Positions 1 through 60,811 of a DNA stretch of 64,000 bases are shown here, in pieces. The stretch lies in assembly GCA_015055615.1 (NCBI GenBank), contig SVHT01000004.1:127308-191307 (forward strand), given 5' to 3'. The DNA is from Clostridiales bacterium (GTDB taxonomy: Bacteria > Bacillota > Clostridia > Christensenellales > Borkfalkiaceae). Numbering within the stretch: the stretch's first letter is position 1; the number at the start of each line of letters is the position of its first letter. Made by a program: the position numbers and the translations under genes. Under the pieces are notes generated by a model. It saw nothing but the letters and a program-made list of their open reading frames with translations. It was not told where the DNA came from and ran no database searches.

Positions 1-223
1 AGTTAAAACGAGCAAGATAATCTTGCAGCTAGCTTTACTATCTTTCCGTCCGTGTGTGTATACGTCCCACGTTCGTTTGGGGGCATAGTCGACCGTATTT
101 TACGAATACTCGGTCGAGTTAAAACGACGGAGATGCGAGCGATACGCGAAGCCGCGAAGGAGCGTACAAGTAGTACGTGACTGAGCGGCGACAAAGTAGC
201 GCGACGCAAATACGTTGTTTTTA
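1..223 (+). repeat. Intergenic repeat, copy 1 (modules A and B)
   Basis: Module A begins near base 11 with the palindrome GCAAGATAATCTTGC and ends about 125 with CTCGGTCGAGTTAAAAC. Module B follows and ends in GTTTTTA at 217-223. The same modules recur at 22538-22767 and 60435-60775. Module B ends pair as AAAACGACG (about 121-129) with CGTTGTTTT (about 213-221), and an inner hairpin spans 151-189. The final TTA is the argJ stop codon. The left end is cut by the window. I see no real gene here; the open frame across it is not conserved as protein between copies. Confidence 0.85.
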
Positions 224-1435
224 GGTACGATAGTCGCCGTTGATTTTTACATAATCATACGTCAAATCACAGCCCCAAGCCGTCGCTTTGCCGTCGCCGT
301 CGCCAAGCGCCACCAAAATTTCAATTTCGTTTTCGAGCAAGATTTCTTTGGCTTTTTCTTCGGAAAATTCGATACCCGCGCCGTCCTTGCACACGGAAAT
401 TTCCCCCTTTGCCGAACGGAACGCAACGTCCACTTTGTTGACGTCTACGTCCACGCCTGCATACCCGATGGCACACAACACGCGCCCCCAGTTTGCGTCC
501 GAGCCAAACATAGCCGCCTTGACAAGCGACGAGCAAATTACCGATTTTGCTACGATTTTTGCCGTTTGCTCGTCCTTTGCGCCCGTGACTTTGCACTCTA
601 AAAGCTTGGTTGCGCCCTCGCCGTCTGCCGCGATTTTTCTGCAAAGATAGGTCGTCGTTGCGCTAAGCGCCGCGCAGAAGTTATCAAACGCCTCGCCCTC
701 TTCGGTAATTTCCGCATTGCCCGCCATACCGTTTGCAAGCACCGAAACCATATCGTTGGTCGAGGTGTCGCCGTCCACGCTAATCATATTAAACGAATCT
801 TTTACGTCTGCGGAAAGGGCTTTTGCGAGCATAGCCGATGAAATGGCGCAGTCCGTCGTCACAAACACGAGCATCGTCGCCATGTTCGGATGAATCATAC
901 CGCTACCCTTGGCAATACCGCCGATACGGCAGGTTTTACCGCCTACCGTGAACTCGAACGCAATCTCTTTCTCCTTCGTGTCCGTCGTCATAATCCCTTC
1001 GCAAGCCAAATCGCTGTGTAAGCCAAGCCCCGAAACAAGGGCGGGAATTCCTTCTGCAATCGGCGTGATATCTAAGGGATGACCAATAACGCCCGTGGAC
1101 GCCACCACGACGTCCTTTGCATCAATTTTCAGTTCTTTTGCAAGCAAAGCGCAAGTTTGCTCGGCAATTTCAATACCGTTTGCGTTGCAGGTATTGGCGT
1201 TGCCGCTGTTGCAAATCACCGCGCGGGCTTTTCCGTCCGCGATATTGTTTTTCGTCACCGTCAAGGGCGCGCCTTTGACGAGGTTTTGCGTGTATACCGC
1301 CGCCGCGCTCGCCTGCGTTTCGCTGAAAATCAGCGACAAATCACGCTTGGTCTTGTTTTTACGGATTCCGCAATGCACACCGTTTGCCGTAAAGCCTTTT
1401 GCGGCGCACACGCCGCCTTGAATTTCTTTTAACAT
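221..1435 (-). CDS. argJ: Bifunctional ornithine acetyltransferase / N-acetylglutamate synthase
   Basis: ArgJ transfers the acetyl group of N-acetylornithine to glutamate, recycling it in arginine synthesis, and may also make N-acetylglutamate from acetyl-CoA. The 404-residue length is normal. The family self-cleavage site is visible in the HPNMATML stretch, where Thr is the nucleophile released on processing into alpha and beta chains. The carboxy end, with a Tyr-Val-Lys-Ile-Asn-Gly motif, is typical. It is the last of the minus-strand run argH-argC-argJ; argC ends 20 bases upstream of its start. argB and argD are not in the window and may lie beyond the left edge. The stop codon is the last three bases of the adjoining repeat. 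Confidence 0.95.
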   Translation of the reverse strand: MLKEIQGGVCAAKGFTANGVHCGIRKNKTKRDLSLIFSETQASAAAVYTQNLVKGAPLTVTKNNIADGKARAVICNSGNANTCNANGIEIAEQTCALLAKELKIDAKDVVVASTGVIGHPLDITPIAEGIPALVSGLGLHSDLACEGIMTTDTKEKEIAFEFTVGGKTCRIGGIAKGSGMIHPNMATMLVFVTTDCAISSAMLAKALSADVKDSFNMISVDGDTSTNDMVSVLANGMAGNAEITEEGEAFDNFCAALSATTTYLCRKIAADGEGATKLLECKVTGAKDEQTAKIVAKSVICSSLVKAAMFGSDANWGRVLCAIGYAGVDVDVNKVDVAFRSAKGEISVCKDGAGIEFSEEKAKEILLENEIEILVALGDGDGKATAWGCDLTYDYVKINGDYRT

Positions 1436-2398: not shown

Positions 2399-3778
2399 TT
2401 ATTTCGCCAAAAAGGCGCGGACTTTTTCCACTTGTTTTTTCACCGAAGCGGGCGACGCGCCCCCCTCGCTAAGACGCTTATTCACGCAAGTTTCCAACGA
2501 GATTTCGCCGTACAAATCTTCCACGAACAGTTCGCTGTGTTTTTGATAATCGGCAAGGGGCAGAGTATCGAGCACGCAGTCCTTTTCGATACATTCCGCA
2601 ACAATCGTACCCACGATTTTGTACGCGCTACGGAACGGCATACCCTTTTTCACCAAATAATCGGCAAGGTCGGTGGCGTTGATAAAGCCCTTTTGCGCCG
2701 CGCGATAGGTGTTTTTGGGGAGCACTTTCATCGTTGCCACCATGGGCGTGAGTACTTCCAAACACATTTTCACGCTGTCTAGCGCATCGAAAATCGCCTC
2801 TTTGTCCTCTTGCATATCCTTGTTATACGCCAAGGGCAAGCCTTTGAGCGTGGTAAGTAGCGCCTGCAAATCCCCGTATACGCGCCCCGTCTTGCCACGG
2901 ATAAGCTCCGCCATATCGGGGTTTTTCTTTTGGGGCATAATCGACGAGCCCGTCGTGTAGCTATCGTCCAATTCGATAAACTTAAATTCCCAGCTCGACC
3001 ACAGAATAATTTCTCCGCTAAGGCGGGAAAGGTGCATCATCAAAACGGAAAACGCGCTGATAAGTTCCAAGCAAAAATCTCTGTCGGAAACACCGTCAAT
3101 ACTGTTCCAAGAGGGAGCGTCAAACCCAAGCGCCGCCGCCGTCTGCGCGCGGTCGATACCATAGGTAGTACCCGCCAAGGCGCAACTTCCCAAAGGACAT
3201 TCCTCGTTCATACGCGCCACGGCGTCTTGAATACGACCGATATCCCGACGGAGCATCATCGCGTACGCCAACAAATGGTGTCCAAAGGACACGGGTTGCG
3301 CGCGCTGTAAGTGCGTATACCCCGGCGCAATCGTTTCGGCGTTTTCTTCCGCTTGGTCGACAATCGCCGCAATCGCCTCTTTCACGAGGGCGACCACGAT
3401 TTCCGCTTCGTCGCGAAGATACAGACGGATATCCACCGCCACTTGGTCGTTACGGCTACGCGCCGTATGCAAACGCTTGCCCGCGTCGCCAATGCGTTTG
3501 GTCAATTCCCCTTCGATAAACATATGGATATCTTCCGCGCCGTTGTCAAAGGTGAGAACGCCGTTTTCAATATCCGCCTTAATCGCCGTCAAGCCGTCGA
3601 TAATCAACGTTAAATCTTCCGCCGATAAAATACCCACGCTGTTTAGCATTTTCGCGTGCGCAATCGAGCCCTTAATATCCTGCGCGTACATACGGCAATC
3701 GAAGGAAAGGGAAGAATTAAAATCGTCTGCTTTTTGATCGAGCGCCTTTAAAAAGCGCCCTGCCCACATTTTTTCCAT
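2399..3778 (-). CDS. argH: Argininosuccinate lyase
   Basis: It splits argininosuccinate into arginine and fumarate, the last step of arginine synthesis. I chose the ATG giving MEKMWAGRF, the usual ArgH start; the open frame runs 11 codons further to a GTG at 3811 but that extension overlaps a hairpin. The fumarase/aspartase signature GSSIMPQKKNPD is intact, as are the TARSRNDQ and HLQRAQP motifs. Length 459 is normal. argG lies 170 bases upstream, separated by a repeat and a hairpin, so expression may be tuned between the two genes. Confidence 0.96.
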   Translation of the reverse strand: MEKMWAGRFLKALDQKADDFNSSLSFDCRMYAQDIKGSIAHAKMLNSVGILSAEDLTLIIDGLTAIKADIENGVLTFDNGAEDIHMFIEGELTKRIGDAGKRLHTARSRNDQVAVDIRLYLRDEAEIVVALVKEAIAAIVDQAEENAETIAPGYTHLQRAQPVSFGHHLLAYAMMLRRDIGRIQDAVARMNEECPLGSCALAGTTYGIDRAQTAAALGFDAPSWNSIDGVSDRDFCLELISAFSVLMMHLSRLSGEIILWSSWEFKFIELDDSYTTGSSIMPQKKNPDMAELIRGKTGRVYGDLQALLTTLKGLPLAYNKDMQEDKEAIFDALDSVKMCLEVLTPMVATMKVLPKNTYRAAQKGFINATDLADYLVKKGMPFRSAYKIVGTIVAECIEKDCVLDTLPLADYQKHSELFVEDLYGEISLETCVNKRLSEGGASPASVKKQVEKVRAFLAK

Positions 3779-3797
3779 AGCTTTTAAAAACACGCTT

Positions 3798-3821
3798 TGC
3801 CTGCCGCGCACGCGACAGGCA
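3798..3821 (-). terminator. Hairpin between argG and argH
   Basis: TGCCTGCCGCG and CGCGACAGGCA pair with one mismatch across a very short loop. On the minus strand the stem is followed by AAGCGTGTTTTT. It could be a partial terminator between argG and argH; the T-run is broken, so this is not certain. Confidence 0.45.
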
Positions 3822-3860
3822 ATAGCTTTCCTTTTTTATAAAATAATTGACTGTATTGAA

Positions 3861-3951
3861 ACGGTGAAACTGCGAGCAGTTCAAGGCGCGGTGAGGGCGC
3901 GTACAGAGAAGTACGTAACCGAACCGCAACCAAGAAATGCGTCCGCTTTTA
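3861..3951 (+). repeat. Intergenic repeat, module B variant next to argG
   Basis: It shares TGCGAGCAGTTCAAGGCG and the following hairpin region with the copy at 22671-22767, but module A is absent. The hairpin at 3888-3927 has outer stem GCGGT/ACCGC, inner stem CGTAC/GTACG and loop AGAGAA. The last bases TTA (3949-3951) are the argG stop codon, as at the argJ and def copies. Confidence 0.75.
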
Positions 3952-5175
3952 CTTGTTATTCTTTTGGTTGACCTGCGCCTGCACCTTAATCGGCAAACCG
4001 AACAGTTCGATAAAGCCGGTTGCGTCTGCTTGGTTATATACGTGGTCTTCGCCAAAGGTTGCGATTTCTTCCGAATACAACGAATAATCGCTCCATGCGC
4101 CCGCCTTGATAATGTTGCCCTTGTAGAGTTTCAAGCGAGCTTTACCCGTTACGTTTTCTTGCGTTTTGTCTACGAACGCCGTCAACGCTTCGCGCAAAGG
4201 CGTGAACCATTGTCCGTTGTAAACGAGCTCTGCAAAGCAAACGGAAAGCTCCTGCTTTTTGTGCGCCGTGTATTTGTCAAGGCACAGCGTTTCCAAATAG
4301 CTGTGCGCCTTATACAAAATTTCACCGCCCGGGGTTTCGTATACGCCACGGCATTTCATACCAACCAAACGGTTTTCGACGATATCCAACAGCCCAATGC
4401 CGTTCGCCCCGCCCACTTTATTAAGAGCAAGGATAATGTCTTTCGCGCTCATCTTCTTGCCGTCGAGGGCTACGGGTTTACCCTTTTCAAATTCGATTTC
4501 TACGTAGGTAGGTTTATCGGGCGCCTGCAAGGGAGATACGCCCATTTCCAAAAAGCCTTCCTTTTCGTACTGCGGTTCGTTGCCCGCGTCTTCCAAATCC
4601 AAACCCTCGTGGCTAAGATGCCAAAGGTTTTTGTCCTTAGAATAGTTCGTTTCACGGTTAATCTTCAAAGGCACGTTGTGCGCTTCCGCATAATCGATTT
4701 CTTCCTCACGGGATTTAATCGACCACTCACGCCAAGGCGCGATAATCTTCATATCGGGCGCAAACGCCTTAATCGTCAGCTCAAAACGAACTTGGTCGTT
4801 CCCCTTACCCGTACAGCCGTGACAGATTGCGTCCGCCCCTTCCTTTTTCGCGATTTCCACGATACGCTTTGCAATAACGGGACGCGCGAACGAAGTACCC
4901 AAAAGGTATTCTTCGTATTTTGCCCCCGCCTGCATGGTGGGGATAACGTATTCGTCTACGAATTCGTCCGTCAAGTCTTCTACGTAGAGCTTGGACGCGC
5001 CCGTTTTAAGCGCCTTTTCTTCCAAACCGTCCAGCTCGTCCGCCTGCCCAACGTTACCGCTTACCGCAATAACTTCGCAGTTGTTGTAATTTTCTTTGAG
5101 CCAAGGAATAATAATCGAAGTGTCCAAACCGCCCGAATAGGCAAGCACTACTTTTTTGATGTCTTTTTTATCCAT
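3949..5175 (-). CDS. argG: Argininosuccinate synthase
   Basis: It joins citrulline and aspartate at the cost of ATP to AMP and PPi. The ATP pyrophosphatase loop AYSGGLDTS stands at residues 11-19, followed by the expected GTSFARP and [15 protein letters not shown] motifs. Start choice: MDKKDIKKV at 5175 follows AGGAG seven bases upstream; the frame stays open 32 codons further but crosses the promoter. Length 408 is normal. It has its own strong promoter with a possible ArgR operator and is followed by argH. Confidence 0.97.
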
Positions 5176-22537: not shown

Positions 22538-22767
22538 CTCGGTCGAGTTAAAACGGCAAGATAATCTTGCAGCTAGTCTTACTATCTTTCCGACCGTGCG
22601 TGTATACGCCCCACGTTCGTTTGGGCGCATAGTCGACCGCGTTTTACGAATACTCGGTCGAGTTAAAACGGCGTAGATACGAGCAGTTCAAGGCGTTGCG
22701 AGGGCGCGTACCGATAGTACGTAACCGAGCAACAACGCCGAAATGCGAAGGATATACGTCGTTTTTA
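22538..22767 (+). repeat. Intergenic repeat, copy 2 (modules A and B') between def and fmt
   Basis: Module A runs from the palindrome at 22556 to GGTCGAGTTAAAAC at about 22669 and is flanked on both sides by CTCGGTCGAGTTAAAACG. Module B' follows, with outer ends AAAACGGCG and CGTCGTTTT able to pair, and inner hairpin 22695-22733 (GTTGC/GCAAC, then CGTAC/GTACG). The terminal TTA (22765-22767) is the def stop codon. Confidence 0.88.
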
Positions 22768-60356: not shown

Positions 60357-60434
60357 AATTTCCTCATCAAAGATTCTTCTTTAATTATTATATGCACGCG
60401 TATACCCTGCCGAGATTGGTCTATGAACACTCGG

Positions 60435-60548
60435 GCAAGATAATCTTGCAGCTAGCTTTACTATCTTTCCGTCCGTGTGTGTATACGCCCCACGTTCGTT
60501 TGGAGGCATAGTCGACCGCATTTTACGAACACTCGGTCGAGTTAAAAC
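60435..60548 (+). repeat. Intergenic repeat, module A (first of a tandem pair)
   Basis: Runs from GCAAGATAATCTTGC at 60435 to GGTCGAGTTAAAAC at 60548, with a likely hairpin TCGACCG...CGGTCGA at its end. Only about 13 bases of module B follow before the next module A begins. Confidence 0.85.
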
Positions 60549-60561
60549 TGCGGAGCTGCGA

Positions 60562-60775
60562 GCAAGATAATCTTGCAGCTAGTTTTACTATCTTTCCGTC
60601 CGTGTGTGTATACGTCCCACGTTCGTTTGGGGGCATAATCGACCGTATTTTACGAATACTCGGTCGAGTTTAAACGACGGAGCTGCGAGCGATACGCGAA
60701 GCCGCGAAGGAGCGTACCGAGTAGTACGTGACTGAGCGGCGACAAAGTAGCGCGACGCAGATACGCCGTTTTAAA
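60562..60775 (+). repeat. Intergenic repeat, modules A and B (second of a tandem pair)
   Basis: A full A (60562 to about 60675) and B (to about 60775). Module A starts after the bases GCTGCGAG that open module B, which shows module A has inserted inside a module B start. The hairpin at 60701-60740 (GCCGC/GCGGC, CGTAC/GTACG) is the same as copy 1. The gap 60357-60824 otherwise holds only the rpmE terminator. Confidence 0.88.
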
Positions 60776-60783
60776 ATGAAGAA

Positions 60784-60811
60784 GGCTTTAAGGCGAATAT
60801 GCCTTAAAGCC
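60784..60811 (-). terminator. rpmE terminator
   Basis: GGCTTTAAGGC and GCCTTAAAGCC form an 11-bp stem with a GAATAT loop; TTCTTCATTTT follows on the minus strand. Confidence 0.75.

Follow-up and report, generated by a model that had tools for sequence, protein, structure and literature searches.

We propose that the imperfect hairpin designated module B belongs to a family of mobile, non-autonomous hairpin repeats, comparable to ERIC and REP, that is spread through one order of uncultured gut bacteria and is recognised by its folded tip, and we give this reading a probability of roughly 0.55. It is favoured by covariation of the paired positions, a mismatch that has been kept, the spread of the element, gene junctions that are filled in some genomes and empty in others, subfamilies specific to single genomes, anchoring at stop codons, and TA dinucleotides near the ends. 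The window, that is, the whole stretch of 64,000 nucleotides that was analysed, contains four copies. These copies, the genes adjoining them, and the nearby units of a second repeat, module A, are the following:

8..123, + strand: module A unit of 116 nt, the last of a tandem array reaching left of the window to C1:126688
121..221, + strand: hairpin copy 1 (module B), a full-length imperfect hairpin; 115.9 bits with the R1 covariance model
156..184, + strand: tip of copy 1, with GA-AG-GA steps, GCGTAC stem, 5-nt loop, GTACGT and GA-CT-GA
221..1435, - strand: argJ open reading frame, its stop codon touched by the right edge of copy 1
3858..3959, + strand: hairpin copy 2, between argG and argH; R1 80.8 bits
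3949..5271, - strand: argG open reading frame, its stop and last codons overlapped by the right edge of copy 2
22556..22667, + strand: module A unit before copy 3
22665..22765, + strand: hairpin copy 3, touching the peptide deformylase stop codon; R1 98.6 bits
22765..23217, - strand: peptide deformylase open reading frame, adjoining copy 3
60432..60546, + strand: first module A unit before copy 4
60559..60673, + strand: second module A unit before copy 4
60671..60772, + strand: hairpin copy 4, 52 nt past the end of the ribosomal protein L31 gene; R1 113.5 bits
60825..61037, - strand: L31 open reading frame, the gene nearest to copy 4

The open reading frame at 2399..3811, beside copy 2, we take to be argH. 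Copy 4 is the only one of the four window copies that does not abut a stop codon, and an inverted repeat at 60784-60811, recognised by eye, separates it from L31.

Module B forms one imperfect hairpin of 100-125 nt, and its copies fall into two length types, near 102 and 122 nt. Copy 1 folds end to end on the + strand, with an RNA energy of -46.0 kcal/mol (z -6.9, equalled by 0 of 200 shuffles) and a z of -5.2 when folded as DNA; RNA of its - strand reaches -33.7 kcal/mol (z -4.0), likewise with 0 of 200 shuffles as good. From the outside inward the fold consists of a 9-pair terminal stem, TGCG/CGCA, GCG/CGC, TAC/GTA and a 5-pair stem, inside which come a GA/GA step, then two base pairs, another purine step and, innermost, a stem of 6 pairs that opens with a G.U pair. 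CGTC is found within the terminal stem of many copies. An earlier note on this DNA had described a hairpin with outer stems reading GCCGC/GCGGC (151-155 with 185-189, and 60701-60705 with 60736-60740), GTTGC/GCAAC (22695-22699 with 22729-22733) and GCGGT/ACCGC (3888-3892 with 3923-3927), as well as pairing of the outer ends of the module, and all of these are present in the sequence. The fold it described is real but was drawn too small, a single hairpin spanning the whole of about 102 nt, and its list of stems, each of them genuine, missed a helix that reads GCGATAC/GTAGCGC versus GCAGTTC/GAAATGC. The inner stem CGTAC/GTACG, which had been called fixed, is constant in the four window copies, whereas elsewhere the stem and its partner change together; the loop does vary as claimed, its sequence being non-conserved among the wider copies and the order-wide strings. 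The GA/GA step holds for the second purine step of copies 1 and 4 but is replaced by GC/AA in copies 2 and 3. Searches with Rfam 15 gave nothing that reached gathering score, either in the window or across seven related loci, and a known Rfam RNA was ruled out, the one 14-bit match, to GP20-b (E 5.6), lying far under the gathering score.

Module A was considered as a structured partner of the hairpin and rejected because its fold scarcely beats shuffles (z -0.4 on the + strand, -1.5 on the - strand), and as a general part of the element because full copies occur only in the own genome, with partial matches in 6 of 56 others. It contains a GCAAGATNATCTTGC palindrome, and it also stands behind genes that lack module B (C9:202187 and C12:63907), where it is followed by a terminator-like hairpin. 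The array to which the first unit belongs (L031, G000:C1:126688-127313) includes a run of N, so that the number of tandem units is uncertain. Other repeats accompany the element elsewhere. At L089, L083, L092 and other loci of genome G008, a further hairpin repeat, TGTCATTGCGAACGAG...GTGGCAATCT, which we take to resemble a CGTC-type REP, often lies a few bases to the left of the element, and it occurs also in spacers between ffh and rpsP. Six loci of genome G019 (L070, L120, L122, L124, L127 and L131) share a left tail of approximately GATACAGTACGNAGCNG before most hairpins, which indicates that the repeated unit there is longer than the hairpin on one side.

The pairing of the hairpin is strongly maintained by evolution. 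In nine copies from the own genome, 93.9% of 294 cells pair and 9 pairs are altered on both sides; the covariation score is 0.223, versus 0.106 in shuffles and no more than 0.055 for slid structures, while further pair types show no excess (13 versus 12.8 in shuffles). For a larger test, 78 long and 49 short distinct copies were aligned with MAFFT and the pairs were set by Watson-Crick frequency alone. Among the 6,918 column pairs of the long type, 9 of the top 10 are structural (AUC 0.894), and 19 of the 35 structural pairs lie above the 99.9th percentile of the other column pairs in the same alignment; in the short type 7 of the top 10 column pairs are structural, 12 of 29 exceed that percentile, and the AUC is 0.873. 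The 145 copies of the wider collection were gathered with a structure-aware model and consequently lean towards pairing. Free of this bias is a core pattern defined on sequence, GGGAGYKTACN{3,8}GTAMRYGACYRAG, which uses no structure model and leaves two pairs free. In 103 distinct core strings, taken as the first places per genome among the matches listed, 203 of the 206 cells at these two positions are Watson-Crick, against 110 in shuffles, and 0 of 5,000 shuffles were as high. The earlier note had named a lack of covariation in more copies as the outcome that would speak against its reading, and covariation is present in the larger set; its proposal of selection on a folded single strand gains support from covariation above the background of the same alignment, from the sequence-only order-wide core, and from the mismatch kept in the tip.

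This mismatch is a tandem step. In the long type, columns 52 and 74 hold G.A in 72 of 78 copies (Watson-Crick 0.00 versus 0.02 expected), and columns 53 and 73 hold A.G in 63 and C.A in 8, with Watson-Crick pairs rarer than expected (0.04 versus 0.16); of the 49 short copies, 33 carry C.A and 14 carry A.G at the pair matching 53/73 (0.02 versus 0.21 expected). The mismatch at columns 23/105 behaves in the contrary way, with Watson-Crick pairs commoner than expected (0.26 versus 0.08). The pair beside the tandem step is G.U in 48, G-C in 25, A-U in 5 and A.C in none of the long copies, and G.U in 44 and G-C in 5 of the short ones; in the order-wide strings, among the matches listed and with a pattern that fixes the G, it is G.U in 94 and G-C in 9. 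A tip pair so rich in G.U and devoid of A.C points to the + strand. The plus-strand reading of the earlier note therefore stands in the tip, where G.U is kept and none of the 127 copies has A.C, but the arms support it weakly, G.T outnumbering A.C by 104 to 52 cells in the long type and equalling it in the short type (26 and 26). Over the full length the + strand is the stabler one in 131 of the 145 copies, by a mean difference of 6.6 kcal/mol. What families have in common is the tip, GGGAG-stem-loop-GACCGAG with its tandem G.A step and G.U pair; the outer arms differ in sequence between subfamilies with pairing retained, and other families of the order carry the same tip on different arms. 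Since the tip is constant across the order and the termini are free, we argue that the folded tip is the recognised part. At one locus of family f24 (L285), the stem beneath the core is AAAACCCTACT/AGTAGGGTTTT and a T-rich stretch comes after it, an arrangement that resembles an intrinsic terminator built around the tip.

R1, a covariance model made from the nine own-genome copies, returned 29 rows in the own genome, two of which were the opposite strand of places already counted, leaving 27 places. Among relatives, R1 matches occur in 25 of 41 genomes, namely 23 of 25 members of the genus (own genome included in both counts) together with 2 of the 16 genomes that represent other families in the order. 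The wider collection came from 60 fetched stretches within 100 sources searched, whose 163 rows were reduced to 145 copies when 18 opposite-strand repeats were removed by hand; the loci were the best-listed matches and hence a non-random sample, and the 100-source search excluded L068 and L076, although both had been fetched. The core pattern is found in 45 of 297 genomes of the order, spread over 23 of 125 genera and, among the matches listed, eleven families, and its reversed control matched in none of the 297. A class-wide search of 391 genomes gave matches in 4, all in the own family, and in 0 of the 372 genomes from outside the order. A pattern for the left arm returned at least 80 loci in named genomes, nearly all of them gut Clostridia assemblies (roe deer, sheep and others), and the single matches in Nitrosospira, Burkholderia and Sulfurimonas, among the matches listed, look like chance. 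We found neither a published description of the element nor any of five core or arm strings in the literature searched, which takes in only a minority of subscription papers.

The element usually adjoins the end of a gene. Open frames of 100 codons or more terminate between -37 and +11 nt from the right edge in 106 of 145 copies, between -11 and +12 in 102, and between -4 and +1 in 80, the equivalent counts on the left side being 18, 8 and 5. In a single, partial copy a frame lies at -11 to +12 on the left but none on the right, and 37 copies have neither. Because frames end at the right edge, the better-folding strand is antisense to the adjoining gene in nearly all such copies. The next gene is co-directional in 81 of the 105 copies that have enough flank and a frame of at least 80 codons, opposed in 22 and unclear in 2. 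Enrichment of TAA at the junction (115 of 125 copies) was discarded as a signal, as 40 of 46 long open stretches of the window also end in TAA. Like ERIC and MITE elements, module B is a multi-copy, short, non-coding intergenic palindrome. Of the 113 copies whose adjoining frame has 60 codons or more, 56 stand beside gene families that carry the element in at least two genomes, including queA (7 genomes), ilvD (5) and Obg (4), and this recurrence reflects either repeated targeting of the same gene ends or the overwriting of old copies.

At queA the outer arm lacks the usual AAAACG terminus and pairs instead with the last codons and stop of the species' own queA. In a test of 14 loci, from four genera of family f1 and one f24 genome, with arms registered by hand, a mean of 13.8 of 17 positions are Watson-Crick with the own coding end, versus 9.1 with another species' arm, and 0 of 20,000 permutations reached the own-arm match, also when 11 distinct coding ends were used. 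The 14 loci were drawn from 16 rows, with L058 (which overlaps L056) and L081 (hairpin 131 nt from queA) left out. All 14 keep a mismatch at or next to the queA stop codon that reads as purine-purine on the + strand. Among 30 genomes of other families, in two of which (G027 and G031) the frame extends beyond the usual end of QueA, 28 gave no match of the core pattern within 330 nt of queA, a count that is an upper bound because the pattern missed a hairpin at the queA stop of G286 (f32), where by eye the arm again matches and where the pattern caught only a second copy. In G029 (f6) a hairpin lies 131 nt from queA, behind a terminator-like hairpin. Present at queA in some genomes and with its core unmatched in most others, the queA hairpin is recurrent and not universal. 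By eye, the arm at an unrelated gene (L279, family f19) mirrors the coding end in the same manner.

These positions bear on a second reading, to which we assign an appreciable but clearly minority chance: that the hairpin is a cis-acting mRNA element, selected at the stop codon as a 3' structure that slows termination, or protects or destabilises the upstream message, with mobility of minor importance. It would account for the way the stop codon falls, in most copies, within the terminal stem or at its border, the prevalence of co-directional neighbours, the return to the same housekeeping genes, and the queA distal arm that tracks the coding end. One study reports that E. coli REPs at most 15 nt from a stop codon stall ribosomes, and also that only 446 of 4,072 predicted REPs lie within 15 nt of one (PMC12306157). 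The conserved features of the tip, however, fit the strand antisense to the message, the mRNA strand presenting U.C/C.U and an A.C pair in their place, and orthologous sites are empty in many species, as with the core at queA in the other-family genomes (with the same upper bound). The agreement between arm and coding end also lends itself to an unlikely account in which the outer arm would be a copy of, or guide to, the last codons of the host gene, with base-pair-guided or fold-back-templated antisense targeting of gene ends by an enzyme of a novel kind that would recognise the GA-stepped tip.

Evidence on mobility comes from junctions, from relatedness among copies and from their ends. Between ffh and rpsP, where 28 of 30 fetched loci were readable, the spacers range from 41 to 386 nt; judged by eye, many are short and empty, and others, those of G008, G016, G717, G719, G019 and G696 among them, are filled by differing subfamilies. 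This comparison recovered no clean empty site with a target duplication. The ffh-rpsP spacer of L312 (G013) holds two copies of another repeat, GTCATTCTGACCGTAGGGAAGAATCCCACGGAAGAAAGTACGG. For copies of at least 90 nt, mean identity is 0.734 between copies at different genes of the same genome, 0.671 between copies at the same gene in different genomes, and 0.642 otherwise; 67 of 5,171 cross-genome copy pairs share a gene, 21 of them at queA. TA lies near both ends in 59 of 114 copies versus 6 of 135 control windows, with the right end biased by TAA stops, and in exact register at both ends in 19 of 114. PMC2229807 describes TA at the termini of most bacterial repeats of similar size, ERIC included.

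Three usual mobilisers are absent, broken or rare, and we rejected the idea that the element-rich genomes share a present-day driver of the RAYT, IS630 or reverse-transcriptase type. The Y1 transposase is missing from the own genome and from 12 of 15 element-rich genomes, and is partial or interrupted in the other 3; DDE_3 transposase was found in 0 of the 15, and reverse transcriptase RVT_1 in 4. We count against the mobile-repeat reading that none of these families supplies a mobiliser, that the junctions yielded no clean empty site with a target duplication, that TA is in exact register at both ends in few copies, that strand choice in the arms is weak, that the 23/105 mismatch is not kept, and that TA insertion alone leaves the fixed orientation and exact stop-codon anchoring unexplained.

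It is quite improbable, in our judgement, that the repeat is an ordinary MITE with terminal inverted repeats, of IS630/mariner type, moved as double-stranded DNA, the pairing being a by-product of inverted repeats and of the correction that template switching can bring about in palindromes. The excess of Watson-Crick pairs at columns 23/105 agrees with such correction, as the inverted termini, the TA near many ends, the tandem duplication and the size agree with a MITE. Correction would create Watson-Crick pairs also at the second tandem mismatch step, whereas they are depleted there. Conserved terminal inverted repeats were not found, since the termini vary among subfamilies, and a conserved centre with variable termini is the reverse of what a transposase binding terminal inverted repeats needs. 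The lack of DDE_3 in the 15 genomes likewise speaks against this account, although a source element carrying it may have been lost.

A small or antisense RNA made from the + strand would fit the G.U and G.A features conserved on that strand and its better fold in most copies, and is nonetheless very unlikely: promoter-like sites on the + strand of the left flank number 46 in 142 copies versus 40.4 in shuffles, and within the element 7 versus 12.0, the loop is not conserved, and most copies lie between co-directional genes and antisense to them. A + strand sRNA with its own promoter was rejected, the flank excess over shuffles being small on both strands and the element itself showing a deficit. 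That relatedness and chance produced apparent covariation from shared subfamilies is scarcely credible, for although copies of one genome are related and were collected by a structure-aware model, background pairs that are equally related score lower in the same alignments, slid structures fail, and the sequence-only order-wide test stands.

The mobile hairpin reading can be placed among known systems. The enterobacterial ERIC/IRU repeats have no known autonomous partner. Module B, which comes from a different bacterial lineage and is likened to ERIC/IRU by description and not by sequence, differs from them in a conserved tip with variable termini, a strongly biased orientation and stop-codon anchoring. 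It resembles them in being an intergenic hairpin repeat (about 100-127 nt in ERIC/IRU), and may also share the TA at the termini, the co-transcription with neighbours and the orientation-dependent effect that PMC2229807 describes for them. With the GTAG and CGTC repeats of the REP/RAYT system it shares extragenic hairpins, subfamilies with alternative complementary stem residues, and a position near stop codons in some cases; module B is about three to five times longer, has several internal loops, and lives in genomes in which the Y1 transposase is absent or broken in 15 of 15. The attC sites of integrons are hairpins past the stop codon of a gene in which the antisense (bottom) strand folds and structure is kept over sequence. 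Unlike them, module B has, by eye, no RYYYAAC/GTTRRRY boxes and is scattered behind housekeeping genes with no cassette array. With the structured RNAs of Rfam 15 it shares a covarying hairpin, without a gathering-score match. The family is thus set apart from both ERIC, for want of conserved termini, and REP, for want of a RAYT partner, and is filed among mobile hairpin repeats.

As a mobile hairpin repeat, module B would be moved or maintained by a putative protein that recognises the folded tip, as single-stranded DNA or RNA, and the fold would have been selected during the spread of the element. Once in place, the element would form a co-transcribed hairpin at the stop codon, which may tune translation termination or mRNA decay, by analogy with what has been reported for enterobacterial REP and ERIC, and some copies, such as those at queA, may now be long-term fixtures. 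What we see is a hairpin family that is large, covaries well, extends across the order and lacks both an Rfam match and an obvious mobiliser. Its sites, the stop codons of named housekeeping genes, occupied in some species and vacant in others, lend themselves to direct tests. It offers a route to a hairpin-recognising enzyme, and to the reason for the clustering of such repeats, all facing the same way, at the ends of genes.
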